The position numbers and the translations under genes are program-made. Shown here piece after piece: positions 2,978-63,185 of a stretch of DNA of 64,000 nt. Position 1 is the first letter of the stretch; each line of letters begins with the position of its first letter. The DNA comes from Nannobrachium achirus (lineage: Eukaryota; Chordata; Actinopteri; Myctophiformes; Myctophidae), in the NCBI GenBank assembly GCA_963921795.1, contig OY997649.1, positions 62,812,006 to 62,876,005 of the forward strand, given 5' to 3'. Under the pieces are notes generated by a model, which was not told the DNA's origin, searched no databases, and saw only the letters and a program-made list of their open reading frames with translations.

Positions 2978-3071
2978 TTTGCCAAAAAATAGCAGATTTA
3001 CAAGTTCATAAAGCGTTCCGTGTCGCAAGGCGACGCGTTGTGAGCTTGTAGATTGGCTATTTTTTGGCAAA
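2978..3071. repeat. Palindromic hairpin, copy 1 (in family E)
   Basis: Arms TTTGCCAAAAAATAGCAGAT and its inverted partner ending GGCTATTTTTTGGCAAA. The related element at 35186-35600 lacks this insertion. Confidence 0.8.
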
Positions 3072-3599
3072 GACATTTGATAGGAAGTGAAAAAAATGCT
3101 GTATCAAGTATGTATATTTTAAGTACCTTTCACCAATTATACAGGGTTTAAGTGGTACCGGATATGTAGCTCGGCAAATAAAAGGTGAATTGATCTCAGT
3201 GCATGACGGAGGACGATATCACGATAAACTAGAAAATATTGTTCCTTCGAAACAATTGTGGGCTCGCTTCAAGCCAAAAAACAATGGCTATAAAAGTACA
3301 AAATGTCAAGATCGCAGGCAGTGCTCTCCTCGCCATTTGTTCCAAAAACGTGTTATGCAAAAGTTGACCCGCTGGTGGCGCTATAACAGGCCAATGTGAG
3401 GAGGTTGGCATCTGTTCCTTGACCTAGTGGGAATGTGCTTGCAAGATTTCACGCACATCGCAGGCTGTGTTCATGATTTTAGGTGTTTTTGGCCACTTTA
3501 ATCGCTGCTTGCAGCTATTTGCCAACTCGGGAACGATGTAAATAGGGAATGAATGCCCCGCCCTTTAATGCAAACCACATTATACCTGTTGTCATAGGA

Positions 3600-4262
3600 C
3601 CCGTTTTGACCATCTGTTTGCCTGTGTCCATTTATGCCCATATATGGAGATATCTGTATCTGTCTGTCTGTCGGCGTTCATTTTATGTCCATGAGATCAC
3701 TGCAGATATAGGTCTGGGTCAATTTTATGCCCATATATGCCCATATATGGAGATATCTGTATCTGTCTGTCTGTGTCCCTTTATGCCCGTATATGGAGAT
3801 ATCTGTTTATCTGCGTCCATTTTATGCCCATATATGAGATCTCTGTATCTGTCTGTCTGTGTCCCTTTATGCCCGTATATGGAGATATCTGTTTATCTGC
3901 GTCCATTTTATGCCCATATATGAGATCTCTGTCGCTTTTTGTTTGTTTCTTCTTTAAGCAGAATACACAGCCTGCTTAAATCTGCATTATTCAAGTCATC
4001 CTCCCAGTCCCACGCTTTGTTGCTTGTCTTATGTTTGTCTTTGTCTCTTTTATTTTCTTTTTTGGAGCGGACCCCATGAATGCCCCACCATTTAATGCAA
4101 ACCCCAATATACCTGTTGTCATAGGACACGTTTTGACCATCTGTTTGCCTTTGTCCCCACCCTTTAATGCAAACCCCAATATACCTGTTGTCATAGGACC
4201 CGTTTTGACCATCTGTTTGCCTTTATCCCCTTATGCCCATATATGGAGATCTCTGCACACAC
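3600..4262. repeat. Tandem repeats with ATGCCCATATATGGAGAT core
   Basis: Two ~98-bp units (3737-3930) hold CATATATGGAGATATCTG plus TCTGTCTGTCTGTGTCC. A second motif, GCAAACCCCAATATACCTGT, recurs at about 3572, 4097 and 4170. Related phrases recur at 27120-27250 and 60143, so this is a dispersed family. Confidence 0.7.
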
Positions 4263-4683
4263 AGTACCGGTTGCGGAAAACTCTGATGTCAGACATCAGC
4301 TCCGCATTCGGGCATTCATTTTATGCCCATATCTGGAGAACGCGCGTGCCGGTGGGAAGAACGGTTCTCGAGATACGCGGATTACATACATACATATACA
4401 TTCACAGAGATTTTTTGTTGACTCATGTGGCGTACGTGATGTCAGAGCTTATTATGAAGTGATGTCACAATGAGTCAGCGCTTGCGCAGATTTCCTCCGG
4501 AACAGCCTGATGTCAACAATCAGCTCCGCATAAGGAGATTCCGAACGTTTTGCGCCGGTTCGGTCAGAAAAAAACGTGCTTCGGGTCGGGTCGAGGCCCG
4601 GCACTGCACTCCGCGCCGCGGCGGGGAACGTGCGTGCCGAATCTGAAGCCGGTGGGACGAACGGTTCTCGAGATACGCGGATT

Positions 4684-5235
4684 AGTTTAGTTTAATTTAT
4701 TGACACAATTGTATAAAACATTGGGTCCAAACAATAATCGAAAACCCATTAATAAAAAACTTGAAAAAGTACAAATTACAATACATTAAAAAACAACACA
4801 AAACACAAAATCCCTTGAATCAAACAACCGAAACTTTCTGTTGCTCCAAAAGTGACAGGCAGGCATGCAGCATACGCAAAGTTTCTCTGTTAGTTGCCGC
4901 AAAGAGTGAGCTCAGATCATCAAACTCAAGTCCATACTTTCTTCTGATGTCCTGTGTGAGGGAACACACTAGTATATGCTGTTCATTTTGTATACCAGTC
5001 TCACATTGGCATGTACGCTGTTCAGTTGGTATGCGACTCCACCTTCCCATCTCCACACGCAGTCTATGAGAGGACAACCGAAACCGTGTAAAGGTTATCC
5101 TCAAATAGTCCTCAATGTAAGGTGTACTGCTGGTGCTTGTGTAGAGTGGATGGACAGATAAATCTGGGTTGATGGCTTGGTATGTCCTATATCTTGTTCC
5201 CTCCTTGGATTGCAGTTTATGAATCATGTCCCTTC
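4684..5235 (-). mobile_element. LINE A, 3' portion (C-terminal zinc-finger region)
   Basis: Minus-strand reading gives LRITFTRFRLSSHRLRVEMG, then GRWSRIP and a C-x-C...H...C cluster (CQCETGIQNEQHILVC), typical of the C-terminus of Jockey-superfamily LINEs in fish. Its 3' end abuts a CTCGAGATACGCGGATTA repeat near 4684. The frame continues from the piece at 7779-8275, so LINE B has been inserted into LINE A. Confidence 0.7.
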
Positions 5236-7751
5236 GGTCAATCAATCAATCAATCAAACTTTATTAAGGACACTTGATCCATAGCAACATAAAAACATAA
5301 AAGTAACATACAAATACAAACAAGGGTGGACATAGTCCACATAAAATCATAAATGATTATACAAGCTTACACGCCAATGGTTCCACAATTTAGAAACAAA
5401 CCTGACCGAGCTCAGTAAAGGGTTTGTCAAGGTTAAAATTACACTGTTAGCAGAGTCAGACAGCCTACACATACATTTGTACATGAGGTTCCGCAAAACA
5501 GCGGAGCAGGTGGGTACACCAATATTTACAAACATTTCACTTGCACTGCTGCATCGTGGTACTCTAAGCAGCAGTCGCATGCCATCATTATAGGCTACAT
5601 TGAGTTTATGCATACTGCTCTTTCTGTAGCGCCGCCACAAGTGGGCAGTATACATAGGTGTACAAAAAGCTTTAAACAGTGTAGACTTCACAGAAGCTGA
5701 ACACATGCTAAACTTACGAACAATCATGTTAGCTTGTGCATATAACATTCTACGTTGCCTGTAGATGTCCCTATCATCAGATAGGTCATTTGTTAGATAA
5801 TGGCCTAAGTACTTGACCTCATCACAGACCTTGAGGGCAGTACCAGACAGAAAGAAGACAGGAAATGACAGTTTACTGTCTTCCTTACTTCTTATAATCA
5901 TAATGTTACTCTTCTTTGCATTGTACATTATGTCAAAATCTAAACCATATTGAGAGCAGACCCTCAGTAGCTGTTGAAGGCCAGCACTATATGGACAGAG
6001 GATAACCAAATCATCCGCATACATCAGGTGGTTGATAATAGTATTACCAACCCGACACCCTGTGTCACAGCTGTTCAGCTTCTTAGATAAATCATCCATA
6101 TATAAATTGAATAGCATAGGGGATAAAATACTTCCCTGTCTAACGCCATTGTTTACAGTGAAATGTGCAGACACACAGTTACCCCATCTAACACACATTG
6201 TCTGATGTGCGTACCAAAAAGCCAGGATTCTTATTAGAACTGTAGGAACCCCTCTGTTATATAGTTTTTGGAACAATTTCTCGTGATTGACACGGTCAAA
6301 GGCTTTAGATAGATCAATAAAACATGAAAAAATGGTTGTATTATGCCCATTATATAAATCTAAAATTTCCTTTAAGGCAAATATACACATATCTGTACCA
6401 TGTTTAGGTTTAAAACCAAACTGGTTGTCCGAGATAAGGACAAACTTTTCCAATCTGTTCAGTATAGTCCTCTCCAAAACCTTAGATAAGATACTGGCCA
6501 GGGCTATTGGTCTGTAGTTATCCGAGCTATTCAGTTTTCCAGATTTATCCTTTATAATCGGCACTAGAACCACTGATAAAATAGAATTTGGTAAAATGCC
6601 ATGAGTTAAAAACCCAGTAAAGCAGATGGCAAGTAATGGACAGAGTTTTCTACCTGCATATTTTAGATGCTCAGCAGATATTTTGTCCAAGCCACACGCC
6701 TTATTGTCTTTGAGCATCCTGACTGCATCATAGATTTCTTGTGGGGAGACTGTCACGTTCTCATTCTCAGCAATGTTGCCCACAATGAAGGAGTTGCTTT
6801 GCACACAATTGAACAGCTCATAATAATGATTCTGCCACAACTGAGCAATCTCCTCTGGGCCAGTTGCCCCATCAATATTGGTAGGCAAGGACGTTTTACA
6901 GTTATTTAATACTTTAATTTCTTTCCAGAATTCATTTGTTTCACATTTTTGTAGCTTCTTTGCAAGAGAATCTGCCCTCATTGTATTTTCGTTTTTTTTA
7001 ATGAAACGCAAAGCATATTTAAAATTTGCATTTGCACGTTTTTTATGTTCAAATAAAGGACCATGTTTTTGTCTGCCTGACTCAACCCAAGCTTTGAAAA
7101 CCCTTCTAGCCTCAGCATGAAGTTCACCCACATACTGATTCCAGCCTGGCTTAGCCTTGTATATCTTAGTCCTCTGTTTATACAAGGGCCTGCTGGACAT
7201 AAGGAGGGACTCTACAATGCTGTCATACAGTGTACATAGATCAGTGCTATGTTGAGGATTCTTACAATTAACATCACTGCACACAGCAGCATCTCTTGGC
7301 AGAAAAATGTTATTTAACAAGGTGTTAGAGTGTCGATGGTACTCACTAATGTCCTCCTCACTTAAGTTAGACCAATCGATCCTCCCAGCACTCATATTAC
7401 TGTCCACAGGCAATAGTGTAGGTACCTGACCCATATTTACAGAAAAAGAAAAGGGTATATGATCTGTAGTGGCAAACTCATAGTTAATTCTCATACTCTG
7501 TATGGAGTCATGTGCATCAGCTGTACATATGCAATGATCCAACCAAGAAGTTGTGTGCCATGCCTCACTAATATAAGTGTAGCTGTCTTCAGGCAACAAC
7601 AACTTACTGGAGAGAATCATGCCACTGTCAGTGCAGAACTGCTTTAAATGTTTAGCAAAAGATGAGTTCATATCAGAAATATCTGCATTCATGTCACCCA
7701 CAACATAAATGCATGTGGATGCATTGTCCTCGATAAAGGACATTATCACTT
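5236..7751 (-). mobile_element. LINE B, 5'-truncated, inserted in LINE A
   Basis: The 3' end carries a (TTGA)n tail at 5236-5262, reading 5' to 3' on the minus strand. The body holds one long frame (see CDS). The 5' end is truncated inside the endonuclease domain, and the junction carries a 27-bp inverted copy of LINE A sequence (7752-7778). The family looks CR1/L2/Rex1-like within the Jockey superfamily. Confidence 0.75.
5347..7749 (-). CDS. LINE B ORF2 remnant: endonuclease end plus reverse transcriptase
   Basis: An 800-residue open frame. It enters in the second half of an apurinic-type endonuclease: GDMNAD near residue 19, SWLDH near 68 and TDHIPF near 94. Reverse transcriptase follows: NYRPIALASILSK about 410, FIDLSKAFDRV about 482, GVRQGSILSPMLFN about 537 and YADDLVI about 583. 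The C-terminus has the YRQRRMLYAQAN and PMYTAHLW blocks and lacks a zinc finger, unlike LINE A. The start is only the first ATG after the truncation point, so it is not a natural N-terminus. The RT core is intact in frame, implying a fairly young copy, but without the first half of the endonuclease and ORF1 it cannot be autonomous. Confidence 0.8.
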   Translation of the reverse strand: MIMSFIEDNASTCIYVVGDMNADISDMNSSFAKHLKQFCTDSGMILSSKLLLPEDSYTYISEAWHTTSWLDHCICTADAHDSIQSMRINYEFATTDHIPFSFSVNMGQVPTLLPVDSNMSAGRIDWSNLSEEDISEYHRHSNTLLNNIFLPRDAAVCSDVNCKNPQHSTDLCTLYDSIVESLLMSSRPLYKQRTKIYKAKPGWNQYVGELHAEARRVFKAWVESGRQKHGPLFEHKKRANANFKYALRFIKKNENTMRADSLAKKLQKCETNEFWKEIKVLNNCKTSLPTNIDGATGPEEIAQLWQNHYYELFNCVQSNSFIVGNIAENENVTVSPQEIYDAVRMLKDNKACGLDKISAEHLKYAGRKLCPLLAICFTGFLTHGILPNSILSVVLVPIIKDKSGKLNSSDNYRPIALASILSKVLERTILNRLEKFVLISDNQFGFKPKHGTDMCIFALKEILDLYNGHNTTIFSCFIDLSKAFDRVNHEKLFQKLYNRGVPTVLIRILAFWYAHQTMCVRWGNCVSAHFTVNNGVRQGSILSPMLFNLYMDDLSKKLNSCDTGCRVGNTIINHLMYADDLVILCPYSAGLQQLLRVCSQYGLDFDIMYNAKKSNIMIIRSKEDSKLSFPVFFLSGTALKVCDEVKYLGHYLTNDLSDDRDIYRQRRMLYAQANMIVRKFSMCSASVKSTLFKAFCTPMYTAHLWRRYRKSSMHKLNVAYNDGMRLLLRVPRCSSASEMFVNIGVPTCSAVLRNLMYKCMCRLSDSANSVILTLTNPLLSSVRFVSKLWNHWRVSLYNHL

Positions 7752-14477: not shown

Positions 14478-14480
<3 letters not shown>

Positions 14481-14780
14481 GGGTGTCGCACCAAATTCTG
14501 GGCCCTGGGTACAAGGATTCACTGCGGGCCCCCCATGAATGTTCTTCATAGGGGGAGGAGGGTGTTTAACCCATTTAGACTGGGAACGCATTATTACGCA
14601 TTATTTTGTGCTTTAACTATTGAAAAATAGCAGATCTACAACCTCACAGCGCGGCACTCAGTGCTGCACTGTGAGCTTGTATATCTGCTATTGTTCAATA
14701 TAATTAAGGCCCCTCCACCTTGGGCCCTAGTAACTCAGTCCCACTCCCCCCCCCCCCCCCCCCCCCCCGTGACGCCCCTG
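14478..14780. mobile_element. hAT-like family A element, complete
   Basis: Ends CAGGGGTGTCGC and GTGACGCCCCTG. The flanks TGTGTGTG on both sides fit an 8-bp duplication, but they lie in a GT repeat so this is not decisive. The hairpin is central. Confidence 0.75.
14620..14698. repeat. Hairpin, copy 4 (family A)
   Basis: TTGAAAAATAGCAGATCTAC with a right arm ending CTGCTATTGTTCAA. Some mismatches are unpaired, so it is an older copy. Confidence 0.8.
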
Positions 14781-15855: not shown

Positions 15856-16095
15856 CAGGGGTGTCACAAGGGGGGAGTGCGAGTGGAAACCCTACACTAC
15901 TAGGGCCCAAGGTGGAGGGGACATAATTATTTTATACTTTAGCTATTGAAAAATAGCAGATCTACAAGCTCACAGCGCGGCACTCTGCGAGCTTGTACAT
16001 CTGCTATTTTTGAAATCCCCCCTATGAAGAACAATCATGGGGGTCCCGCAGTGAATCCTTGTGGCCAGGGCCCAGATTTTGGTGGGACACCCCTG
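15856..16095. mobile_element. hAT-like family A element, inverted relative to 14478
   Basis: Ends CAGGGGTGTCAC and GGGACACCCCTG. Carries hairpin copy 6 at 15946-16014. No clean target duplication. Confidence 0.7.
15946..16014. repeat. Hairpin, copy 6 (family A)
   Basis: AATAGCAGATCTACAAGCTC arm and a GAGCTTGTACATCTGCTATT arm, with a shortened loop. Confidence 0.85.
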
Positions 16096-16374: not shown

Positions 16375-16548
16375 CAGGGGCGTCAATTGGGTATGGCAGG
16401 GGTATGCAGCTGCCAATGCCATACCTTGGCTACAGGGGGAAATAATAAAAATGTACTTTTCATCGTGCCTGTTGCTAAGGTATGGCAACATGCCTGGTGA
16501 CACCAGTCATGTTGCCATACCTTAGCTTGTTCTGAACTGACGCCACTG
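16375..16548. mobile_element. hAT-like family G element with palindromic core
   Basis: Ends CAGGGGCGTCAATTGG and AACTGACGCCACTG. AACACAGG is duplicated exactly at 16367-16374 and 16549-16556. The core has inverted TAAGGTATGGCAACATG arms. Only 174 bp. Confidence 0.85.
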
Positions 16549-18418: not shown

Positions 18419-18752
18419 GCATACTCTTTTCAGGCCGCGACCCCCAAAACAAACGCGAGGCGTTGTGAGCATGTAGATCTGCTGTTTTCACAATCTCTGC
18501 CTCTAATATTTGACAATTTGGCGAATGTTTAATTTGCCATTTTAGAGGTATTAAAAAGATCTTAAATTGTCACTTTAGAAATGTGCAGATACCCTCTATA
18601 CACTTAAAATGTATGTTGCTTTATTTACTGTTGAGTGAGAAAACGATATTGCACAGCACATTTAAGTTAATCATCTGGGGACCCCCCAAAATGATTTGAG
18701 GACCCCCCCTGGGGGCCCCGACCCACAGGTTGAGAACCAGTGATTCAGAGAT
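18419..18752. mobile_element. hAT-like family D element fragment
   Basis: Runs from TTTTCAGGCCGCGACCCCC to CAGGTTGAGAACCAGTG. Shares TCTGCCTCTAATATTTGACA and AGAAATGTGCAGATACCCTC with copies near 54470, 55650 and 59530. A hairpin right arm is at 18454-18493. Confidence 0.7.
18454..18493. repeat. Hairpin, copy 8 (right arm only, family D)
   Basis: GTGAGCATGTAGATCTGCTG then TTTTCACAAT. It has GCATGT where the consensus has GCTTGT, as in copy 29. Confidence 0.7.
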
Positions 18753-19078: not shown

Positions 19079-19318
19079 GGAAGGAGGCTGCGTGTTGAGC
19101 GTTTGTTTGAGAGGTGTTTGCGAGTGTTTTTCTATCTTTTTTCTATCTATCTCTTTATCGACATACTGCATGTGAATAGTGAGTTTATAGTTTTTATTGT
19201 TAAAGGTGTAAATCGCCAGGCTTTGGGAGGAGGTGGTGTTTGTGTGTGTTAAGTGTGTGTGCTGCAGCCGACCAGCGCACGCTGGTCGGTGCGCATAAAC
19301 GGTTAACGCGACGCGATT

Positions 19319-20722
19319 ATGGAGTTTGTTAATTTAACAAGAAAGCACGGTGTGAAGATCGCATCAAAGTTTCAGTTCTCAGTAGAGGAGTGTAGTTTGG
19401 CGATCGGGAAGGTGGTCGGTAATAGCAGCGTTAAATCCGCGGCACGGATGAATAATGCTGTTGTGATTTTTGTTGACAGTGTTGACAAAGCAAACACGCT
19501 GGTGGAGAACGGCATTGTTATAAAGGACACGTTTGTTCCTGTTGCGCCTCTTGCTACTACAGCAAAGAAGGTGATCATTTCTAATGTCCCTCCATTCATT
19601 AGAGATGAAGTGTTGACACGGGAATTATCCCGACATGGTAAGATTATTGGCCAAATTAAAAAAGTCCATTCAGGCTGTAAATCTCCTGAATTAAAGCATG
19701 TCGTGTCACACAGAAGGCAGTTAAATATGATTCTGCACAAGAGTGGGGATTTGAACTTGGCTTTCAAGCTGAGAATTGATGACTTTGACTATGTGATTTT
19801 TGCAACATCTGAACAGATGAAATGTTTTTTTTGCAAATCCAGTGGACACCTAGCCAGGGGTTGTCCAGAAAAGATTAATGCAACAGAGGAAAATATTGAA
19901 AGTGGGGAAAAGCAGGGGGAGACAGGAGATGTACAGCAAGACAGTCAAGAGGGTGAGACTGAGACAGGACAGGGGGGGACAGGGGACATGCAACAAGACA
20001 GCCAGGTGAGCGAGACAGAACAGAGGGGGACAAGTGACATACAGGGAAACAGCCTTGTGAGTGAAACAAGACAGGAGGAGACAAGTGCTGTTCAGGAGAG
20101 TGAGACAGGAAAGGGGGCGAAAAGTGACATGCAGCAGGACAGTCAAGTGAGTGAGAAAGGACAGGAGGAAAATAAAGGTCCGCTTTTTGGCACAGGGATG
20201 GTGTTTGGCTCACCTTCTGTGCTTACTGTAAAGCAGAATGTAATCAGCCCTGCAGAAAATGTAATGATGGGAGGGGAAGAAGTTGAAATGGATAATGAAA
20301 ATGTTGTCTTTAAAATGCCATTAAAAAGGAAAGGCAAAGGTAACAAGGGAAGCTCAAGGGCAAAAAAAGGAATAGCTAGCAAATCCACAACTGAGGCAGC
20401 TAAACAGGTAGCGGAGTCTGATTCAAGTGTGTATGCTGCAGACAGCGAGAGTGATTACTCTGATTCCATGACTGCTAGTCAAGAGATGAAGGCAGATTAC
20501 ACTGTTGGAAAAATACAGTTGTTCTTACAGAAAACTAAAAATTTGAGGGGAGTGAAAGTGGAGGACTATTTCTCTGATAGAGAGTGTTTCTCTGAGTCTG
20601 TACGACGTCACTTGGGTAACAAAGAGGAAGGAGGCTTTACTAAGCCTGAAGTCGCCAGGTTAAAGAAACTTGTTTCAAGAGTCAGATCAGAGCTAAATGA
20701 TGGATGTGATGATGATGAATAA
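19319..20722 (+). CDS. LINE ORF1 protein, zinc-knuckle RNA-binding type
   Basis: A 467-residue frame. The start at 19319 is preceded only by one upstream ATG that stops immediately. Residues 1-150 form a compact domain with two beta-rich halves resembling an RRM-like fold (VIISNVPPFIRDEVL about 83-97). One CCHC knuckle follows, CFFCKSSGHLARGC at about 169-182. Residues 190-290 are an acidic, Gln/Gly-rich spacer made of imperfect repeats of DMQQDSQVSET. The C-terminus holds a basic segment (KRKGKGNKGSSRAKKG) and a charged coil ending KKLVSRVRSELND. In this clade ORF1 packages the element RNA. Nothing indicates a host gene. Confidence 0.85.
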   Translation: MEFVNLTRKHGVKIASKFQFSVEECSLAIGKVVGNSSVKSAARMNNAVVIFVDSVDKANTLVENGIVIKDTFVPVAPLATTAKKVIISNVPPFIRDEVLTRELSRHGKIIGQIKKVHSGCKSPELKHVVSHRRQLNMILHKSGDLNLAFKLRIDDFDYVIFATSEQMKCFFCKSSGHLARGCPEKINATEENIESGEKQGETGDVQQDSQEGETETGQGGTGDMQQDSQVSETEQRGTSDIQGNSLVSETRQEETSAVQESETGKGAKSDMQQDSQVSEKGQEENKGPLFGTGMVFGSPSVLTVKQNVISPAENVMMGGEEVEMDNENVVFKMPLKRKGKGNKGSSRAKKGIASKSTTEAAKQVAESDSSVYAADSESDYSDSMTASQEMKADYTVGKIQLFLQKTKNLRGVKVEDYFSDRECFSESVRRHLGNKEEGGFTKPEVARLKKLVSRVRSELNDGCDDDE

Positions 20723-23700
20723 GTTTTTACACCCTGTGTACAATAGATTAGTGTTATGTTTTTGTTTGCTTTTATTATTTCTTGCTATGAGTCATTTTAA
20801 TATCAGTACATTGAATCTAAATGGGGCAAGAGATTTAGCAAAAAGGTCTCTCTTGTATGAATTAATGAAAATTAGGAAAACTGAGGTGATGTTTGTACAG
20901 GAGACCCACAGTGACTGCTTAAATGAGTGTGATTGGAAAAGAGAGTGGGAGGGGGAAGTGGTGCTCAGTCACAAGAGCACAACCAGTGGGGGGGTGGGCA
21001 TTCTTTTTTCGAAAAATTTCACTCCAATTTCTATTGAAATAGAACAGGTTGTGGAGGGTAGGCTGTTGGTGGTGAGAGCAGTTTTTGATTTTTTTAATCT
21101 GATGTTCATTAATGTGTACGCTCCTAATACGGGTCCTGAAAGAGTATTATTTTTGCAAACATTAAGCACTAGATTAAGTCAAGTTGATGTTGAGGATCTA
21201 TTATTTTTGGGTGGAGATTTTAACTCAACAGAAAATGATTGTTATGACAGGAATCATTTGGAACCCCATAGAGCATCACAAAGTGCACTGAAGAAATTGA
21301 TAGAAACATATGATCTAAATGATGTGTGGAGAAGTTTTAATGGTGACATAAGACAATACACTTGGGCTCATAGTAGGGATAATCTAATTTCTCTTGCTAG
21401 GTTGGACCGGTTTTATTGTTTTGATCATCATTTTAACACCTTTAAAAGGTGCAGAATATTTCCTGTTGGTTTTACTGATCACTGTATGGTTGAGTGTGTC
21501 GTTTTAATCAGTAACTTAAAACCAAGGAGTGCATATTGGCATTTTAACACCGCTTTACTAAATGATGAACATTTTAAAGATGTTTTTCGTTTCTTTTGGG
21601 GAATTTTCAAGGACAGAAAAGAAGACTATAATTCTCTGAGACAGTGGTGGGATTGTGGGAAAGTGGAGATAAGGCAGCTCTGTCAAGAGTACACTCTCAA
21701 TGTCACACGAGACATCACCAGATCTATAGAAGATCTAGGGATTGAAATAGTGGAACTGCAGTTTCTTGTAGATTCCACTGGAAATCGAGGTCATATTGAG
21801 GACCTCAAGGCTAAAAATTCTGCTCTTAGAGACCTACTAGGCACCAAAGCTCAGGGAGCACTGGTCAGATCACGGTTCCAAAGTGCAACGCTAATGGACG
21901 CACCATCACAATTCTTTTTTGGCCTTGAGAAGAAGAACGGGCAGAGCAGATTAATTCATGCTTTGCGGTCTGAAGAAGGAGAGGAGCTCAGAGACTCAAA
22001 AGACATTCGGAGAAGAGCAGTGGACTTTTACTCTGAGCTTTATTGCAGTGAATATGAGGACAATGATGAACTGTTTGATCAATTCTGTGACAATTTGCCT
22101 AAAGTTCCAGAAGATGTCAGCGATGAGCATGGAGTACCGCTGGGGTCAAAAGAACTTCTAACAGCCCTACAGAGCATGGAGGGGGGAAAGTCCCCTGGGA
22201 TCGACGGCCTCCCAGTGGAGTTCTACAAAGAATTCTGGAGCGAGCTGGGTGAGGAGCTTTTGAATGTTTTCAACGAAAGCTTTAAAGACATGTTGCTACC
22301 TTTAAGCTGCAGGAGAGCAGTAATAACTCTGTTGCCAAAGAAAGGAGATCTCCAAGAGATCAAAAATTGGCGGCCTGTATCGCTTCTCTGTACGGACTAC
22401 AAGATTTTGTCAAAAGCGTTGGCCAACAGACTGAGAGAAGTGATGGACCTTGTTATACATCAAGACCAGACTTATTGCGTGCCTGGTAGGTCCATCCTGG
22501 ACAATGTGTCCTTAATTCGAGATATTTTGGACATCTCTAGTTCATTGGGCATCAATATTGGTCTAATTTCGCTGGATCAAGAAAAGGCATTTGATAAGAT
22601 TGAGCTACCTTACCTCTGGAGGACTCTCCAGAGGTTTGGCCTCAGTCCAGGTCTAATAGCCATGATCAGGGTGTTGTATCAAGACATTGAGAGTGTACTC
22701 AAAATTAATGGAGGCCTAAGTGCCCCTTTCAAAGTGGGTAGAGGGGTACGTCAGGGCTGCAGTCTTAGTGGAATGCTGTACTCTTTTTCTATTGAACCAC
22801 TGTTATGCAAAATCAGGAGTAGCATTGAAGGTCTGATTTTAAAAGATTGTAAGAAAAAATATATTGTATCTGCATATGCAGATGATATAATCATTATGAT
22901 TAAAAGTAAAGAAGAGATAAAGAGACTAGATGAGATTGTAAAAGAGTTTGGATTATTATCATCTGCTAAAGTCAACTGGGAAAAAAGTGAAGCACTGGCA
23001 GTTGGGAGTTGGAAAGAAGGGCTGCCTAGTTTACCAGGGGGGTTGAGATGGAAAAAAGATGGATTAAAATATCTTGGAGTGTATGTTGGAAATGACACCA
23101 TCATTCAAAAGAACTGGGAAGGTGTTCTAGAGAAGGTAGAAGGAAGGCTTAATAAATGGAAATGGCTAAAACCACAAATGTCCTACAGAGGTAGAGTACT
23201 TATTATTAACAACTTAGTGGCTTCTGCTCTATGGCACAGGTTGGCCTGTATGGAGCCACCTAGAGGTTTGGTAAAAAAGGTGCAATCAATTTTAGTGGAT
23301 TTTTTCTGGGACAAATTACACTGGGTACCACAAAGTGTCTTGTTTCTACCAAAAGAGGAGGGAGGACAAGGTCTGATTCACATAGAGAGTAGAATAGCAG
23401 CCTTTAGAATACAGTTTGCACAGCGTTTTCTTACAGGCCCAACAGACGTTGTGTGGCGAGAAGCTGCTAATATCATTTTGCAAAGAACAGCTGGTCTAGG
23501 TTTAGACTCCTCTCTTTTTTTAACGGACTGTACTGGATTAAACATGTATGGGTTACCTCCTTTTTATCAAGCAGTTTTTAAATCATGGAACTGTTTTAAA
23601 TGGAGGTCCTTAGAACCCACGTGTTCCTTACACTGGTTACTTGAAGAGCCCCTCATTAATGGAGCCAAATTAGATATACAGGACAATTCTACACCAGGTT

Positions 23701-24939: not shown

Positions 24940-25139
24940 CATTTTGGGCAGAAACCTCGTATCTCCAAGTTTCAAAAGTATACATTTTTTCGCAAAGCAA
25001 AGCCCTGCTTCATCACACAAGGCCCAAAAGTAGTGAAAACAGCAGATCGGCTGTTTTCACTAGTTTAAATCATTTTTAAAATGATAAACACAAAACAAAC
25101 GGTTTTGGACATACAAGGTTTCCACCCGACAACGACGAA
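24940..25139. mobile_element. Family B MITE with collapsed hairpin
   Basis: Left GGGCAGAAACCTCGTATCTCC-type end and right end CCACCCGACAACGACG. Closely matches 62926-63185, except that the hairpin is reduced to 32 bp. Confidence 0.7.
25031..25062. repeat. Hairpin, copy 9 (loop lost, family B)
   Basis: TAGTGAAAACAGCAGATCGG followed by CTGTTTTCACTA: the outer arms are kept and almost all of the inner arms and loop are gone. Confidence 0.8.
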
Positions 25140-25231
25140 ATATAAATCGTGTACAGTAATTGGCCCGCACTGGCTTGTCACTTGTCATGATCTGAAATGG
25201 CAAATCTTTGAGTAGCAGCAGCAGCGCTATA

Positions 25232-25616: not shown

Positions 25617-25695
25617 TTCAAAAATAGTAGATCTACCAGCTCATAGCGCGGCACCGAGTGCCGCGCTATGAGCTGGTAGATCTGCTATTTTTGAA
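25617..25695. repeat. Hairpin, copy 10 (family A), near-perfect
   Basis: A 79-bp hairpin with one mismatch and a 3-nt loop between GCGGCAC and GTGCCGC. Carries two paired arm changes: ACCAG/CTGGT and CATAG/CTATG against consensus ACAAG/CTTGT and CACAG/CTGTG. Confidence 0.95.
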
Positions 25696-25740: not shown

Positions 25741-25987
25741 TTAAAGGAGTAGTTCACCCCCAAAATGTTTTTTTTTTCTTCTAATGATTACTCACGCCAT
25801 GGAGACTTGAGTTTGGGGACCCAAACGCATTCGGGTCCCCATCCGGAATCAATGGAGGTAAATTTACTTACTCACATTTTTGTCGTAGGAATGCGACATA
25901 TACAAACAAATATTATTGAACTCAAGTCTCCATGGCATGAGTAATCAATAGAACAAAAGTTATTTTGGGGGTGAACTACTCCTTTAA
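25741..25987. mobile_element. TTAA foldback MITE, second family
   Basis: TTAA on both sides. Inverted ends AGGAGTAGTTCACCCCCAAA and ATTTTGGGGGTGAACTACTC, with further inverted similarity inside. Same family as 37351-37637. Confidence 0.85.
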
Positions 25988-26606: not shown

Positions 26607-26783
26607 CAGGGGCGTCACAATGGGGGGGGGGGGGGGACCAAATGCACAAATGTAGTACGTTTTCAAAAATAGCAGATCTACAAGCTCGCAGCGCGGCACT
26701 CGGTGCCGCGCTGCGAGCTTGTAGATCTGCTATTCTTCAATAGTTAAAGCTCCCAGGGCCCAGAATTTGGTGTGACACCCCTG
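26607..26783. mobile_element. hAT-like family A element, complete short copy
   Basis: Ends CAGGGGCGTCAC and TGTGACACCCCTG. Flanks TCTGGCTC (26599-26606) and TCTGGGTC (26784-26791) match 7 of 8. Almost the whole element is the hairpin. Confidence 0.8.
26661..26740. repeat. Hairpin, copy 11 (family A), near-perfect
   Basis: Inner arms carry the paired variant TCGCAG/CTGCGA. The loop is 3 nt between GCGGCAC and GTGCCGC. Confidence 0.95.
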
Positions 26784-28470: not shown

Positions 28471-28514
28471 CATGGTGTGCAGAATACGGGTACTGAACCT
28501 CACCTAGACGCAAT

Positions 28515-33954: not shown

Positions 33955-34028
33955 GAAAAATAGCAGATATGCAAGCTCACAGCGCGGCACCGAGTGCCGC
34001 GCTGCGAGCTTGTAGATCTGCTATTTTT
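33955..34028. repeat. Hairpin, copy 12 (family A)
   Basis: Arm GAGCTTGTAGATCTGCTATT on the right, GAAAAATAGCAGATATGCAA on the left. Loop GCGGCACCGAGTGCCGC is intact. Confidence 0.9.
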
Positions 34029-34385: not shown

Positions 34386-34431
34386 CTTCAAAAAATAGCA
34401 GATCTACAAGCTCGCATCTGCTATTTTTCAA
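34386..34431. repeat. Hairpin, copy 13 (inner part lost)
   Basis: AATAGCAGATCTACAAGCTC goes straight to GCATCTGCTATTTTTCAA: the loop and most of the right inner arm are missing. Confidence 0.8.
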
Positions 34432-35185: not shown

Positions 35186-35600
35186 CAGGGATGGGACGAT
35201 AGGAACATGTCATATCACGATTATTGTGACAAAAAATAAATCGCGATTTACGACATTATCGCAAATACTCAAAATCCATTATCCTGTGGCGGAACATTAG
35301 CCAAAAGACATTTGATAGAGAGTGAAAAGAAGACTGTATAAAGTATGTATATTATAAGTACCTTTTTACCAATTATAGAGGGTTTAAGTGGTACCGGATA
35401 TGCAGCTCTGCAAATAAAAGGTGAATTGATCCCAGTGCATGACGGAGGACTTGATTGAGTATTTTATCAGACAAAAGTGGAGAACATAACATTAAAGAAT
35501 GTAGTACAGTACAATTTATCGTGACAATATCACGATGAATTAAATATCCACAATACGATTATCGTGAGTGTTTTTTATCACGATAAACGATAATGTAACT
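35186..35600. mobile_element. hAT-like family E element lacking the hairpin
   Basis: Starts CAGGGATGGGACGATAGG and shares GGGTTTAAGTGGTACCGGAT and GGTGAATTGATC with 2870-3230. At 35297-35308 it reads TTAGCCAAAAGACATTTG with no hairpin. The right end is truncated after TATCACGATAAACGATAAT. Confidence 0.75.
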
Positions 35601-36059: not shown

Positions 36060-36580
36060 CAGGGGCGTCAATTGGGTATGGCAGGGGTATGCAGCTGCCA
36101 TACCCTGGGTCCAGGGGGGAATATAAAAGTTACTTTTAAATATAAATCCATGAATGTGTCTTTGTCTATCTGTGCTGGTTATTATGTTGTTAAATTACAG
36201 TAAAATAACTACAAATGCAAAATTTGACAAAATGGTCACTTTAACAAGCTATTATAATTATATTCTCCACACTTGCATCTTGACAAAATGGTAGCCTATA
36301 TTCCCAGGTTCCGCAAGTCAGCTGCACAGGTGCAATGCATTATTGTTAATTGTGGCACGTTTCCTAACATGCCAAGTTTAGCTGCACTTGAAAAACCCGT
36401 TCAAGGCTGCCATATCCAGCCCAAGAAACCGTAGAAACCGAGGAAAAATAGAATGTACTTCTTAAAATAAATGTATCATGCCTGTTTCTAAGGTATGGCA
36501 ACATGACTGGTGTCTTGCACGCGCGTGCAAGACACCAGTCATGTTGCCATACCTTAGCTTTTTCTAAACTGACGCCACTG
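36060..36580. mobile_element. hAT-like family G element, long copy
   Basis: Ends CAGGGGCGTCAATTGGG and TGACGCCACTG. Flanks TTGGAAAG (36052-36059) and GTGGAAAG (36581-36588) match 7 of 8. Contains a perfect 68-bp palindrome. Confidence 0.82.
36489..36556. repeat. Perfect 68-bp palindrome
   Basis: TAAGGTATGGCAACATGACT opens the left half, and the right half is its exact reverse complement ending GCCATACCTTA. The centre is GCACGCGCGTGC, with no spacer. Confidence 0.97.
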
Positions 36581-36816: not shown

Positions 36817-37287
36817 CCCCTGAAATGCCTTTTGAAGGGGACGGGGGCCAAAAGTTAAAGGCGTATATTATGGGGTCGATAAAACCACAATGTGGACGCC
36901 ATTAGCACCTGTCAGTCACTGTTGGGGATAGAGCGAGAGGGGCGAGGTTGTGATGGTTTGGGACGTTGGAGGAGGAGGAGGAGGTACGATGGGGAGGAGG
37001 GGTACGTTCAGGGGTGTCGCACCAAATTCTGGGCCCTGGCTACAAGGATTCACTGCGGACTGGGAACGCATTATTACGCATTATTTTGTGCTTTAACTAT
37101 TGAAAAGTGTTTGAATATTTCAAATCCTTCTGAGGTTTAAAAAAAAAAAAAAAAAAAACTGTTTCCCATCTCAAAATATTTTGTTCCAGGGACACCCCCC
37201 AGAAGCAAAATTTGAGTTACATAATGTTTGCTTAAAAAAATACATATATTATATTATATTCAAAGATTTGCACACATTTTCACTACT

Positions 37288-37346
37288 TTTCAAAAATAGC
37301 AGATCTACAAGCTCGCAGTGAGCTTGTAAATCTGCTATTTTTCCAA
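37288..37346. repeat. Hairpin, copy 14 (short loop, family A)
   Basis: AATAGCAGATCTACAAGCTC then GCAGT then GAGCTTGTAAATCTGCTATT. The GCGGCAC inner arms are missing. Confidence 0.9.
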
Positions 37347-37350
37347 TAGC

Positions 37351-37637
37351 TTAAAGGAGTAGTTCACCCCCAAAATGACTTTTTTTCTATTGATTACTCA
37401 TGCCATGGCATGGAGAGTAGAGTTCAATAATATTTTTTGTTTTTTGTCACATTCCTAAGACAAAAATTTGATTCGAGTAAATTTACCCCCATTGATTCCG
37501 GAACGAATGGGGGTAAATTTATTGTTATCACATTTTTGTCTTAGGAATGCGACAAAAAAATATTATTGAACTCTACTCTCCATGGCGTGAGTAATCAATA
37601 GCAAAAAAGTCATTTTGGGGGTGAACTACTCCTTTAA
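37351..37637. mobile_element. TTAA foldback MITE, second family
   Basis: TTAA at both ends. AGGAGTAGTTCACCCCCAAA and its reverse complement at the ends. Nested in hAT 37009-37680. Confidence 0.88.
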
Positions 37638-37694
37638 ATATAAAATAATTAGCCTCCCCCCCCCCGCTGTGACACCCCTGGGTACGTTGGCTGT

Positions 37695-37851
37695 TCAAGC
37701 TCACAGTGAGCTTGTAGATCGGCTATTTTTGTCTAAAGTTCTCAGAATATGGACGCTAGGGTCCAAGTGGTTAATATAAAAAAGGAGAAAAAATAATCTA
37801 TCACTCAAAGATTTGGAGGACCCCCTGTAGTAACTCTGTTGAAGACCCCTG
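37695..37851. mobile_element. hAT-like family C, right-end fragment
   Basis: Contains a short hairpin (copy 15, 37696-37731), TCCAAGTGGTTAATATAAAA and the terminal GTTGAAGACCCCTG. Confidence 0.75.
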
Positions 37852-40941: not shown

Positions 40942-41012
40942 CCAAAAATAGGTGATCTACAAGCTCGCGAGTCGCGACGCGTTGTGAGCTTGTAGATCGG
41001 CTATTTTCGGCA
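40942..41012. repeat. Hairpin, copy 17
   Basis: AAAAATAGGTGATCTACAAG and GAGCTTGTAGATCGGCTATT arms around CTCGCGAGTCGCGACGCG. Host element not recognised. Confidence 0.8.
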
Positions 41013-47654: not shown

Positions 47655-47935
47655 CATCGTCGCCGTCGCAAGGAAACCACGTATGTCCAAAAAAAAACGT
47701 TTGTTTTGTGTTCGTCATTTTAAAAATGATTTAAACAGTGAAAATAGCCGATCTACAAGCACACAACGCCACACGATGCGAGGCGTCGTGTGCTTGTGGA
47801 TCTGCTATTTTCACTAGTTCTGTCCGACACTCTTGCATGATGAAGTAGGGCTTTAAGTTACCAAAGAAACGTACAAGTTTGAAGCTTGGAGATACGAGGT
47901 TTCTGCCTGACAATGATGATGATATCGTGAGGAAG
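47655..47935. mobile_element. Family B MITE with full hairpin
   Basis: Left CGTCGCCGTCGCAAGGAAAC, right GAGATACGAGGTTTCTGCCT. Hairpin copy 19 at 47736-47815. Confidence 0.75.
47736..47815. repeat. Hairpin, copy 19 (family B)
   Basis: GAAAATAGCCGATCTACAAG arm with the paired variant CAAGCACAC/GTGTGCTTG. Outer flank AGTG/CACT. Confidence 0.92.
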
Positions 47936-49639: not shown

Positions 49640-50165
49640 ACAGCCAGTGTTGTTTTTGACAGCACATTTGGATTTAGTTTTAGTCTTTTGAATAAAATGT
49701 CATTTAATTTTAGTCATAATTTAGTCACCTGAAAAGTTTTAGTTTTAGTCTTATTTTTGTTGACTAAATATCATAATATTTTAGTCGACTAAATCTACAG
49801 TTGATTTAGTCAACTGTAAAGTATTTTGGCAGGCCTTGATGGCATCGTAAGGACTGATTTTACACTTGGTTGTGTGCTGAAAAAAAGCAGATCTACAAGC
49901 TCACACCGTGTCGCGTTGTGAGCTTGTAGATCTGCTATTTTCAGCACGCAACACCTGAGAGCAACCAAACATAAAATGACTCTCCTCTCCACTAGTCCCT
50001 CCCTAATTTATTATTTTGTTGACGAAATTGTCAATATATTTAGTCTTAGTTTTAGTCATCACAGCTTAGTTTTTATTTAGTTTTTATGTCGTTTTTGTCG
50101 GTGAAAAAAACACAGTCGACAAACATTTTTCGCCATATATTTAGTCGACAAAATCAACGCTAACT
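49640..50165. mobile_element. Element with TTTAGTCGAC repeats (family F)
   Basis: GTGTTGTTTTTGACAGCAC near the left end, and GTCGACAAAATCAACGCTAA at the right end, with TTTAGTCGACTAAA-like motifs inside, resemble a common fish DNA transposon. Carries hairpin copy 20. Confidence 0.6.
49870..49951. repeat. Hairpin, copy 20 (flank TTGTGTGCTG/CAGCACGCAA)
   Basis: Inner arms AGCAGATCTACAAGCTCACA and TTGTGAGCTTGTAGATCTGC. The flanks extend the palindrome by about ten bases with one mismatch and are unique to this copy. Confidence 0.92.
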
Positions 50166-50275: not shown

Positions 50276-50822
50276 CCAGACCACAGAGACTCCCCCAGCT
50301 TTAGTCCTGTGAGCGAAAAGAGAAAGAAAGACATTTTTCATTTTTCAACAGAAGCGGAAAAACCCGACGCACGTTCCAAACAAATCGATCAATCATTCAC
50401 ATTCCCAGATTACACTGAGCTTACGGAGTCGTTCCTGCACTCCATTACCGCTTACATCTTGTAGCGAGGATCTCGTCTTCGACGTTCTATGCTATTGGAT
50501 GGACGTGGTGCGGACACCATTGACAACCTGACAATCTCGCTCACGCTACTTCTTTTTTTTTTCCTCTATAAAAGGAGGAGGACGCTCCGGTGTGTGGGCT
50601 AAACTATAGATAGACCTGAGAACAGCTTGGCCCCGGTTGGACAATGGAGTCAATATGATCTGACTGCACAAAGTCCTTAGCAGCTTTCAGGGGTGTCGCA
50701 CCAAGTTCTGGGGCCTGCATGGGTACAAGGATTCTACTGCGGGCCCCCGTGAATGTTCTTCATAAGGGGAGGGGGGGTTTAACCCATTTAGACTGTGAAC
50801 GCATTATTTTGTGCTTTAACTA

Positions 50823-50890
50823 TTGAAAAATAGCACATGATAGAAGCTCACAGCGCCACGCTGCGAGCTTGTAGATCTGCAATCTTTTGA
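50823..50890. repeat. Hairpin, copy 22 (family A, eroded)
   Basis: GAAAAATAGCACATGATAGA on the left; GCGAGCTTGTAGATCTGCAA on the right. Confidence 0.75.
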
Positions 50891-51173
50891 AAAATCCTGA
50901 ACATTTGTGCAAGCCTTTGAATATTTCAAATCCTTTTCAAAGCCTTTGAAGCCTTTCAAATCCTTCTAAGGTTTGTTGAAAAAAACCTATGTTTCTATAT
51001 GTCAGTGGTGCTCAAACTTTTTCATGTGAAGGACCCCCAAAATTATATGTATTTGGCCACAGATCCTATCTCAAAATATTTAGTTCCAGGGACCCCCCAC
51101 AAGCAAAATTTTAGTTACAAATGTTCGCTTAAAAAATACATAATTCAAAGACTTGCACACATTTTCACGACTT

Positions 51174-51232
51174 TTCAAAAAAATAGCAGATCTACAAGCT
51201 CACTGTGAGCCTGTAGATCTGCTATTTTTCAA
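51174..51232. repeat. Hairpin, copy 23 (short loop, family A)
   Basis: AATAGCAGATCTACAAGCTC, then ACT, then GTGAGCCTGTAGATCTGCTA. Confidence 0.9.
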
Positions 51233-51727
51233 TAGCTAAAGTGTAAAATAATTAAGGCCCCTCCACCTTGGGCCCTAGTAACTCGGGCCCTAGTAACTCA
51301 GTCCCACTCCCCCCCCTGGCAGCTTTAGCAGAGAGAGACAGAGAGAGCCTGTCCACGCAGACACAGACAGACACAACGCTCTATAACACTCAAAGTGATC
51401 CATCGGCCCCGCGGAGAGGAGCTGCCCGGATTCACACACTCAACCAGTGACTTGATATCCAGGCAGCGCCAGCTGGTCCCAACCCCAACACCAGGGTCTG
51501 AGTTCATCAACAATGCAAAAGCAGGGAGACCAAATACAACCACCAAAGTTGTAATAGTTAAATTGTCTCTACAACACAGTTTTGTCCAGAAAAATATATA
51601 TATATATATTCACAAAAAAAGTATGGATTGCTTTAAAAATCCATTGCAATTTTTCATAATCAAAATCAAAATATTGATGCCTATTGTTGCCAGTGGTAAA
51701 AACAGATACTGCACGTGGTACACACGT

Positions 51728-52010
51728 GCAGTATGCTGGAACTAAATATTTTGAGATGCGGGTCCGTGGCCAAATACATATCATTTTGGTGGTCCTTCGA
51801 AAAGGTTTGAGCAACCCTGACATAGAAACATAGTTTAAAAAAAAAAAAAAAAAACAAGGATTTGAAATATTCAAAGACAAATTTTCACCATTTAAAAAAA
51901 ATAGCAGATCTACAAGCTCGTATATCTGCTATTTTTCAATCGTTAAAGCACACAATAATGCAGTGAATCCTTGTTGTACCCAGGGCCCAGAATTTGGTGA
52001 GACACCCCTG
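51728..52010. mobile_element. hAT-like family A fragment, inverted
   Basis: Contains GGAACTAAATATTTTGAGAT, hairpin copy 24 (51893-51939, loop lost) and the terminal GAGACACCCCTG. Confidence 0.75.
51893..51939. repeat. Hairpin, copy 24 (collapsed, family A)
   Basis: AATAGCAGATCTACAAGCTC followed at once by GTATATCTGCTATTTTTCAA. Confidence 0.85.
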
Positions 52011-53387: not shown

Positions 53388-53826
53388 CAGGGGTCTTCAA
53401 CGTTTTCAGGCCAAGGACCCCTTAGTTGAGAGAGAAATGAAGCAGGGACCCCCACAACCTGTTCATAGATTCCATATAGTTTCATTGTTTGACAGCACTA
53501 TCATCAGTGTATTTTGGATTCATGTCAATTTGTGTTTTCAGATATTTAACCACTTGAACTGTCAATACTTAATAAACCTGACCTTTCACTCTGTACGTAG
53601 TCTGCTCTTTTTACCCTCTACACCAAACCTCTTTGCCGAAAATAGCCGATCGCCTCGCAGCTGCTATTTTTGGCTAAAGTTCTCAGAATATGAACGTTAA
53701 GGGTTCAAGTGGTTGATATAAAAAAAAGGAGAAAATAAAGTTTCTATCACATAAAGATTTGGAGGACCCCCTGTAGCCACTCTGGGGACCCCCTAGGGGT
53801 CCCGGACCCCCTGTCGAAGACCCCTG
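53388..53826. mobile_element. hAT-like family C element, complete
   Basis: CAGGGGTCTTCAACG and TCGAAGACCCCTG ends. CACTAAAG is duplicated exactly at 53380-53387 and 53827-53834. Contains hairpin copy 26. Confidence 0.92.
53631..53679. repeat. Hairpin, copy 26 (family C)
   Basis: CTTTGCCGAAAATAGCCGAT and GCTGCTATTTTTGGCTAAAG arms. The inner part is reduced to CGCCTCGCA. Confidence 0.8.
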
Positions 53827-59341: not shown

Positions 59342-59600
59342 AGTGGTTCTCAACATTTTCAGGCCGTGACCCCCGAAATAATCATATTTTAACTGGGGAC
59401 CTGGCACCCTGACGAGCACTAAGAGTTGAGGAATTTTGTTCTATTGTGAAAATAGCAGATCTACATGCTCACAACGCCTCGCGTTGCGAGGCGTTCTGAG
59501 CATGTAGATCTGCTATTTTCACAATTTCTGCCTCTAATATTTGACAATTTGGCCCATGTTTAATTTGTCATTTCAGAGGTATTAACAAAATCAATAACCA
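59342..59600. mobile_element. hAT-like family D element with full hairpin
   Basis: AGTGGTTCTCAACATTTTCA and GGCCGTGACCCCC at the left, TCTGCCTCTAATATTTGACA after the hairpin. The right end is lost. Confidence 0.75.
59443..59525. repeat. Hairpin, copy 29 (family D), near-perfect
   Basis: An 83-bp hairpin with flanks ATTGTG/CACAAT and the paired variant ACATGCTCA/TGAGCATGT. Inner loop AACGCCTCG...CGAGGCGTT. Confidence 0.95.
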
Positions 59601-61323: not shown

Positions 61324-61325
<2 letters not shown>

Positions 61326-61358
<33 letters not shown>

Positions 61359-61374: not shown

Positions 61375-61392
61375 AAAATATATGAACGTTAC

Positions 61393-61454
61393 CTCTGTTC
61401 TGTAGAGGAAACTTCCCTCCACGTCTGACTCGTCTCTGCTCTTCTTCAAAATGC
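61393..61454 (-). CDS. kiaa0825: kiaa0825 exon (most upstream one seen)
   Basis: A 62-nt minus-strand exon reads (G)ILKKSRDESDVEGSFLYRTE and ends at GAG|GTAACG, a usable donor in phase 0. The acceptor is CTCTCAAG|GC, an AAG rather than the usual CAG, so this edge is less certain. Phase 0 matches the next exon, which starts with GCG GTG. The peptide falls where KIAA0825 has a charged, poorly conserved linker before the WRSAF block, which explains why little homology is visible. A (TGAT)n-like repeat lies just beyond the donor and a 26-copy minisatellite starts about 115 bp upstream of the acceptor. Confidence 0.6.
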
Positions 61455-61571
61455 CTTGAGAGACCAAAAACATATTTTCTCATTCAAAACCTTTTTGACA
61501 GAACACCATTTATGCACCACATAACAGTATGTATGCATATGATTATTATTAATAATGGTACATAATGCTTG

Positions 61572-62622
61572 GGCTGAGACCTTCAAAGTGGGGAGAGCCA
61601 GGAAGCAGGGTGCAGAGACCTTCAAAGTGGGGAGAGCCAGGAAGCAGGGTGCAGAGACCTTCAAAGTGGGGAGAGCCAGGAAGCAGGGTGCAGAGACCTT
61701 CAAAGTGGGGAGAGCCAGGAAGCAGGGTGCAGAGACCTTCAAAGTGGGGAGAGCCAGGAAGCAGGGTGCAGAGACCTTCAAAGTGGGGAGAGCCAGGAAG
61801 CAGGGTGCAGAGACCTTCAAAGTGGGGAGAGCCAGGAAGCAGGGTGCAGAGACCTTCAAAGTGGGGAGAGCCAGGAAGCAGGGTGCAGAGACCTTCAAAG
61901 TGGGGAGAGCCAGGAAGCAGGGTGCAGAGACCTTCAAAGTGGGGAGAGCCAGGAAGCAGGGTGCAGAGACCTTCAAAGTGGGGAGAGCCAGGAAGCAGGG
62001 TGCAGAGACCTTCAAAGTGGGGAGAGCCAGGAAGCAGGGTGCAGAGACCTTCAAAGTGGGGAGAGCCAGGAAGCAGGGTGCAGAGACCTTCAAAGTGGGG
62101 AGAGCCAGGAAGCAGGGTGCAGAGACCTTCAAAGTGGGGAGAGCCAGGAAGCAGGGTGCAGCGAACGAGACCTTCAAAGTGGGGAGAGCCAGGAAGCAGG
62201 GTGCAGAGACCTTCAAAGTGGGGAGAGCCAGGAAGCAGGGTGCAGAGACCTTCAAAGTGGGGAGAGCCAGGAAGCAGGGTGCAGCGAACGAGACCTTCAA
62301 AGTGGGGAGAGCCAGGAAGCAGGGTGCAGAGACCTTCAAAGTGGGGAGAGCCAGGAAGCAGGGTGCAGAGACCTTCAAAGTGGGGAGAGCCAGGAAGCAG
62401 GGTGCAGAGACCTTCAAAGTGGGGAGAGCCAGGAAGCAGGGTGCAGCGAACGAGACCTTCAAAGTGGGGAGAGCCAGGAAGCAGGGTGCAGAGACCTTCA
62501 AAGTGGGGAGAGCCAGGAAGCAGGGTGCAGAGACCTTCAAAGTGGGGAGAGCCAGGAAGCAGGGTGCAGCGAACGAGACCTTCAAAGTGGGGAGAGCCAG
62601 GAAGCAGGGTGCAGCGAACGAA
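61572..62622. repeat. 39-bp minisatellite, about 26 units
   Basis: Unit GAGACCTTCAAAGTGGGGAG plus AGCCAGGAAGCAGGGTGCA. Five units in the right half carry an extra 6 bp (GCGAAC). Because 39 is a multiple of 3 and the unit lacks stops in several frames, long open frames appear on both strands; none has independent support as coding. Confidence 0.95.
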
Positions 62623-62925
62623 CGGAGGCAACAAACCCACGCAGGCAGAGGCAAGAGTTCACCAACCCAGCCAGGGCTTGAAAGTGAATGCTAAATGTGT
62701 TAGCCTATAGCGTGCTAAATGTGTTAGCCTATAGCGTTCCGAGACATCCATTATTTAAGCGTGAACATTTCCATATCACTCATGAATCATATGATATTAC
62801 GCGTTTAAAAGCCCACAAATGAGCGCCCGCCGCCCGGCGTTGGAACTTAAAGACCTGTGTTGTTACTGTATAGATGTCTCACGGGTTTCGTTTCGCTCAC
62901 GCACGCCGCATCATATATATATATA

Positions 62926-63185
62926 TCGTCACTGTCGGACAGAAACCTCGTATCTCCAAGTTTCAAGTTTGTACGTTTTTTCACCAAGTAAAGCCCTGCT
63001 TCATCAAACAAGTCTGTCGCACGAAAGTAGTGAAAACAGCCGATCTACAAGCACACAGCGCCTCGCACCGCGAGGCGTTGTGTGCTTGTAGATCTGCTGT
63101 TTTCACTAGCTTAGTTCATTTTTAAAATGATAAACACAAACCGAACGGTCTTGGACATACAAGGTTTCCACCCGACAACGACGAT
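62926..63185. mobile_element. Family B MITE, best complete copy
   Basis: The left end ATCGTCACTGTCGGACAGAA and right end CCACCCGACAACGACGAT are inverted over about 37 bp with several mismatches. (AT)n lies on both sides, so a TA-type target is likely. Centre is hairpin copy 31. Confidence 0.8.
63028..63108. repeat. Hairpin, copy 31 (family B), near-perfect
   Basis: An 81-bp hairpin. Outer TAGTGAAAACAGC/GCTGTTTTCACTA, paired variant CAAGCACA/TGTGCTTG, inner GCGCCTCGC/GCGAGGCG. Confidence 0.95.

Follow-up and report, generated by a model that had tools for sequence, protein, structure and literature searches.

The window analysed here, a 64-kb stretch of contig OY997649.1 of the fish Nannobrachium achirus, contains short non-autonomous elements of several flank-defined groups that carry one and the same palindromic hairpin. 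A full scan of the window with the hairpin arm AATAGCAGATCTACAAGCTC and its reverse complement gave 34 matches at up to 2 substitutions and 46 at up to 5. The reversed pattern of the arm gave 0 at both thresholds in the same scan, and 20 single-base shuffles averaged 0.45 matches at 5 substitutions. The arms group into 29 places, 17 of them two-armed; a tally by eye has 29 places and the two stubs listed in the table below. An earlier note on this DNA, which had described a passenger or parasite recurring about 30 times in six unrelated transposon families and had proposed a genome-wide search for the arm with clustering of the hits by flank, was right about the recurrence. We give roughly even weight to the interpretation that the founders of several non-autonomous families received the hairpin whole, as a palindromic module, and that these families then amplified it.

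In the whole genome (1,658,514,493 bases in 564 contigs), the 20-base arm occurs in 134,293 exact copies, 67,315 forward and 66,978 reverse, against 0 exact copies of the reversed pattern. The copies are spread over many large contigs of the nuclear 1.66-Gb genome and do not point to an organelle location. A 200-kb sample, consisting of twenty 10-kb stretches spread by hand over 14 contigs, holds 53 hairpin places, 24 of them two-armed, and the density in the stretches examined is roughly one place per 2 to 4 kb. A further 60 loci from the first 2.1 Mb of contig 1 and eight others were picked by exact arm match (L005-L012 and L033-L092), a set biased to well-kept arms; other arms were accepted at up to 5 mismatches.

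The hosts were grouped by clustering outward flanks of up to 130 bases, which resolved 186 half-flanks into 23 clusters and 39 singletons, with some copies skipped. The group names come from this clustering; the counts are those of a later full scan, in which 178 of the 251 arms with enough flank were assigned to groups and 73 were not. The C-left and E-right flanks fell into one cluster from the outset and align pairwise with a score of 46, where the best of 500 shuffles reached 37; to judge from these flanks, C and E are one diverged lineage. Flank profiles were compared after removal of the 12 bases adjoining the hairpin. Iterated from 13 seeds, they linked D to M and B to degenerate B copies (shuffled controls 0/13). 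A and D met by distal matches only, as expected because a D-like end lies inside A, and no further labelled group joined F, H, K or the other seeds. Group J, which was not among the 13 seeds, found no partner in a separate comparison, and group I, which shares one half with B, may belong to it. Within 130 bases on each side, A, B, C/E, D, F, H, J and K have nothing detectable in common but the hairpin, barring the D-like end in A. H accounts for one window place by profile, and J and K lie outside the window.

The six host families of the earlier note are reduced accordingly. A, B, C with E, D and F are distinct in the window, while C and E count as one lineage. At about 34.2, 51.0 and 51.8 kb, ends resembling those of D (CAGTGGTGCTCAAAC and similar) sit within A elements, which that note, giving no coordinates by family, may have counted as D; in the complete long A copy CAGTGGTGCTCAAAC lies between the two hairpins. 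Its picture of one hairpin in elements with unrelated ends holds in so far as the edges are common and the flanks show no other similarity, and is weakened by the fact that A, C, D and E are all of hAT type.

The commonest full hairpin spans 67 bp, from AATAGC to GCTATT, and forms a palindromic module AAAATAGC...GCTATTTT. Loss of the palindrome centre, with the outer arms retained, has shortened many copies, in the extreme case (34394) to 32 bp. Five window hairpins folded as DNA gave z of -9.9 to -15.2. Among two-armed loci, the length of 67 is present in eight of ten groups (A 18/32, B 3/5, C/E 4/17, D 3/5, F 1/8, H 2/7, I 3/3, K 1/3) and absent in J (68 twice) and M (48, 68 and 89). Outside the hairpin, identity between the ten labelled groups falls from 0.96 at position -1 through 0.73 and 0.46 to 0.28 at position -4 and stays at 0.22-0.35 farther out; it is at background by the fourth base outside AATAGC, and the window copies alone show the same. 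Within the arm, positions 1-18 reach 0.83-1.00 apart from position 7 (0.57), values that are inflated because the copies were chosen by their arm. The drop itself falls two to three bases outside the query and so is not set by it. Like a miniature inverted-repeat transposable element (MITE) with its terminal inverted repeats, the hairpin is one inverted repeat with edges common to the ten labelled groups.

Both the inner and the outer stems are host-specific yet complementary. The inner stem is GCGCGGCAC in A, CGCCTCGC in B, D and several C copies, commonly CGCGTCGC in E, F, H and K, and GCATCGC in I. Positions 3-10 of the outer stem match their own partner at 3.7-6.0 of 8 in nine groups and only 2.5 of 8 in J, compared with 1.8-2.6 between groups (groups of 2 to 32 loci). 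In a covariation set of 23 of the 30 full-length rows, from which six A rows and one I row were left out, 87.5% of cells are paired and 18 of 42 pairs are altered on both sides, a number reached by 6 of 500 shuffles. The covariation score is 0.245, against 0.118 for shuffled rows (0/500) and at most 0.074 for slid partners, although it cannot separate selection from arm-to-arm copying because the sequences are related. Identical changes in both arms number 17, against 2.8 when shuffled over all loci (0/2,000); of 100 strings, 44 were picked by hand for readable arms, and the 43 that were scored contain 7 where 1.7 are expected, two of them at a mutable position, which is suggestive only. As a separate observation, an A-type hairpin at L096:3751-3904 contains extra tandem arm fragments, as if it had been extended by repeated fold-back copying.

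Complete host copies measure 177-868 bp, too short to code. Hosts A, C, D and E have terminal inverted repeats of C/T-A-G type (CAGGGGTGTC, CAGGGGTCTTCAAC, CAGTGGTTCTCAAC, TAGGGATGGGACGATA; A elements start CAGGGGTGTC and E elements TAGGGATGGGACGATA), with ends that are consistent within each family and have 7-11 of 11 terminal bases matching. Exact 8-bp duplications outside simple repeats bound two A copies, other A copies scoring 5/8, 7/8 and, in a TG tract, 8/8. Exact duplications also bound two E copies outside the window (L015, L021), the complete C element of the window, a C copy in L016, a C-like element in L008 and one D copy (L018:5661-6528). Three of the eight groups (A, C/E and D) are therefore of hAT type, an assignment that rests on the quality of single copies because an automatic duplication scan did no better than its random-centre control. 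A hint in H is suggestive of the same type; no readable ends were found in F, I, J and K, and the duplication of the best B copy is not readable because the copy sits in a TA repeat. In a later scan, run without a control, 8 of 119 non-A places had pairs, among which those in B, in H and in unassigned places are unconvincing. One copy that we class as Tol2-like begins beside CAGTGGTGTAAAGTAAC.

Elsewhere in the genome, hAT transposase domains gave 150 scored matches among 1,653 candidates. Four loci around hAT transposase frames held no autonomous partner with A, C or D ends. One locus has a different hAT at L093:1081-4528, with ends TAGAGCTTAG and an exact duplication CTACTTAT, beside a C-like end; it has a 633-aa open frame at the transposase domain.

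Hairpin-less copies, for which the earlier note had suggested looking, were found in E, F and H, where they are rare and resemble deletions. The E junction without the hairpin occurs genome-wide in 2 exact copies, or 10 at up to 1 mismatch, compared with 1,712 exact filled E copies (gapped pattern). Of five filled E copies, that at 2871 is closest to the hairpin-less copy at 35.3 kb; a 45-nt fragment at the end of L079, where the locus is cut, is closer still and does not show its hairpin state. The rarity of the junction and the nearest filled relative at 2871 make deletion the likelier origin of the 35.3-kb copy. Its interpretation as a pre-insertion site, with an 84-nt insert that includes an inverted flank copy, was rejected on the genome counts and these relationships. 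H has 611 filled and 3 short copies, two of which retain a piece of the arm, the third retaining only AAAATAGC, which the right flank may also have supplied. F has 892 filled and 29 short copies; by eye, most junctions differ and most retain a piece of the hairpin or outer stem, one copy retains nothing, and two junction types are seen three times each. Gaps between the short and long classes lie outside these counts. Because hairpin-less copies are rare and mostly look like private losses, the hairpin was almost certainly present in the founders of E, F and H.

Table 1. Hairpins and host elements in the 64-kb window.
Feature	Positions	Strand	Remarks
E-element hairpin	2978..3071	.	TAGGGATGGGACGATA end at about 2870; inverted repeat, aligned with hairpin-less E copy
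Short A element, one hairpin 14626-14692	14478..14780	+	Duplication 8/8 but inside (TG)n tract
Short A element, one hairpin 15952-16008	15856..16095	.	A-type ends; duplication only 5/8
D element with half hairpin	18420..18742	+	
B element with hairpin stub 25034-25054	24946..25141	.	Hairpin centre lost
A-type hairpin	25623..25689	.	TTAA-flanked element nested alongside
Short A element, near-perfect 67-bp hairpin 26668-26734	26607..26783	.	Duplication 7/8; fold z -13.2
Hairpin 2 of truncated long A element	33959..34025	.	
Hairpin 1 of the same truncated A element as the 33959 hairpin	34394..34425	.	Centre deleted, 32 bp
Hairpin-less E copy (part)	35187..35450	+	Clean junction; most likely a deletion derivative
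Long A element, hairpin 37295-37339	37009..37680	+	Second hairpin missing (alignment); duplication GGTACGTT 8/8; also holds nested TTAA-flanked element
C-type hairpin	37690..37730	.	Adjoins C right half
F-type hairpin	40947..41005	.	
B element, hairpin 47743-47809	47656..47921	.	
F-type hairpin	49883..49939	.	Palindromic outer stem, host-specific
Complete long A element, hairpins 50829-50884 and 51182-51226	50688..51318	+	Duplication GCAGCTTT 8/8
A-type hairpin	51900..51933	.	Centre deleted, 34 bp
Complete C element, hairpin stub 53641-53666	53388..53826	+	Duplication CACTAAAG 8/8
D-type hairpin	59451..59517	.	Element start CAGTGGTTCTCAAC at 59341
B element in TA repeat, hairpin 63035-63101	62924..63186	.	

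Deletion between the two hairpins of a long A element would account for the short A copies that keep just one. A TTAA-flanked inverted-repeat element, AAAGGAGTAGTTCACC, is present at 25741-25987 and 37352-37637, nested in A beside a hairpin both times. The window also contains a second recurrent near-perfect palindrome, CTAAGGTATGGCAACATG..., in two copies (36488-36557 and 16474-16526). By eye, the frame at 28497-32897 (+) is a long retrotransposon frame with integrase motifs ahead of the reverse transcriptase, an order we take to be that of Gmr1-type Gypsy elements. Long open frames at 19307-24683 (+) and 5347-7749 (-) resemble, also by eye, parts of retrotransposons of the long interspersed nuclear element (LINE) type, and a tandem repeat at 61543-62694 is open in several frames.

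The common edges, the recurring full length, the unrelated flanks and the near-universal presence of the hairpin in the families tested fit a module exchanged between families. Such a module would have been taken up whole by the founders of eight or more groups, defined by flank and made up of short non-autonomous elements, and transposition of the host elements would then have multiplied it. Entry would probably have occurred through template-switching or recombination repair and not through transposition of its own. Fold-back synthesis, primed at the hairpin end and with a few bases of the host flank as template, may have formed the outer stems, and arm-to-arm copying would help to maintain the likeness of the arms. 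Repair with template switching and fold-back would account both for the inverted, host-specific outer stems and for the lack of target duplications. No fixed-length target duplication was found at the hairpin edges, where the flanks tend toward inverted copies in nine of ten groups. The hairpin was also considered as a target-duplicating transposon and rejected as such, the sole direct repeat seen at its base being TTGAAAA in A. The parasite of the earlier note, taken as self-moving, is not supported: neither a fixed edge duplication nor a pre-insertion site was found, and the few hairpin-less copies of E, F and H resemble deletions.

Several observations weigh against the exchange of a module. 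The case of C and E proves that some of the apparent diversity of hosts is divergence, and the comparison of flanks covers only 130 bases. No family yielded a pre-insertion site. The automatic duplication scan gave pairs at 6 of 161 places, compared with 9 of 270 centres placed at random in those element-rich loci. In the covariation set, further pair types do not exceed the shuffles (41 versus 41.6), and the excess of identical two-arm changes is weak when shuffled within groups (17 versus 11.9; 55/2,000). The direct repeat TTGAAAA stands in A in place of inverted outer arms. Finally, an A/C difference between the arms at position 7 recurs in copies of C/E, F, H, I, K, B and M, so both arms have travelled together; a pure fold-back remaking of the whole second arm is ruled out by this difference.

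The main rival to module exchange is a single lineage that diverged while selection preserved a functional hairpin. All hosts would descend from one old hairpin-bearing element whose flanks diverged while the hairpin was kept as an aid to multiplication, for example as a protein-binding or RNA hairpin. We regard this as possible but distinctly the less probable course. It became more credible once C and E proved to be one lineage, and it accords with the hAT type of A, C, D and E and with a conserved block between covarying stems, as in functional structures. The rarity of hairpin-less copies in E, F and H also fits, but is equally expected if source copies simply carry the hairpin. Common descent must further explain why flanks are at background between groups from -4 outward when the arm, whose identity is inflated by selection, is not. 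No function is known for the hairpin, and Rfam gave no match at its gathering cut-off anywhere in the window, for example as a microRNA.

Independent mobility of the hairpin is possible, with little positive evidence. In one form, which we consider rather doubtful, a self-inserting parasite would use transposons as vehicles and leave a fold-back inverted copy of the target flank instead of a direct duplication. In another, which seems unlikely, the hairpin would itself be a mobile nuclear palindromic parasite, moved by an enzyme or via RNA and landing at A-rich sites in other elements. The edges common to ten labelled groups on both sides would suit such a parasite, as would the 21 of 53 places of the 200-kb sample that fit no flank group, were most of these not one-armed or degenerate; fixed duplications, empty sites and an enzyme were all missing. 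Scans of viral and prokaryote contigs gave four chance matches and otherwise none.

It is very improbable that the MITE of group B owned the hairpin and that nested insertion and deletion left fragments of it in other elements: the hairpin is central in B, and hairpins among the most degenerate are found in B-like window copies, but random fragments would vary in their edges, and these are alike in all groups including B. That the hairpin is a chance or assembly artefact is practically negligible in view of the genome-wide count of exact arms, its empty reversed-pattern control and the intact host elements bounded by target duplications.

A single short palindrome common to several transposon families would amount to an exchange of DNA-transposon modules in a vertebrate genome. 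It raises the question of whether the hairpin aids the multiplication of its carriers or spreads independently. It also calls for caution in repeat annotation, as a core common to different families is not evidence of common origin.

Our literature search, whose coverage was incomplete mainly for subscription journals, found no recognised account of a hairpin common to DNA-transposon families of a vertebrate nucleus. A non-autonomous hAT or MITE family normally has its own internal sequence. The hosts A, C, D and E resemble such elements in their hAT-type ends and 8-bp duplications, but here one internal palindrome is common to groups with unrelated flanks. Rickettsia palindromic elements, Volvox palindromes and the teleost Angel elements are likewise dispersed palindromes; to our knowledge, they are not modules common to several transposon families.

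Closer in form are the repetitive hairpin-forming elements (RHE) of sponge and fungal mitochondrial DNA, which one study describes as short hairpins in many copies and contexts, with flanking duplications reported there as lacking for the Allomyces elements (PMC2800124). The fish hairpin is similarly dispersed through many contexts. RHE belong to organelle genomes and have variable loops and conserved stems, whereas the fish hairpin is nuclear, lies within DNA transposons and has covarying inner and outer stems. Template switching between the arms of inverted repeats homogenises them, according to a second study (PMC8604942). It would yield paired changes and could explain the upkeep of the palindrome, but not its presence in many families. 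A parallel for a conserved module on an unrelated carrier is the V-domain of short interspersed nuclear elements (SINEs), spread by the MER6 transposon (PMC6887750). As summarised there, that module has one carrier and is not presented as a palindrome, whereas the hairpin described here is a palindrome with several.

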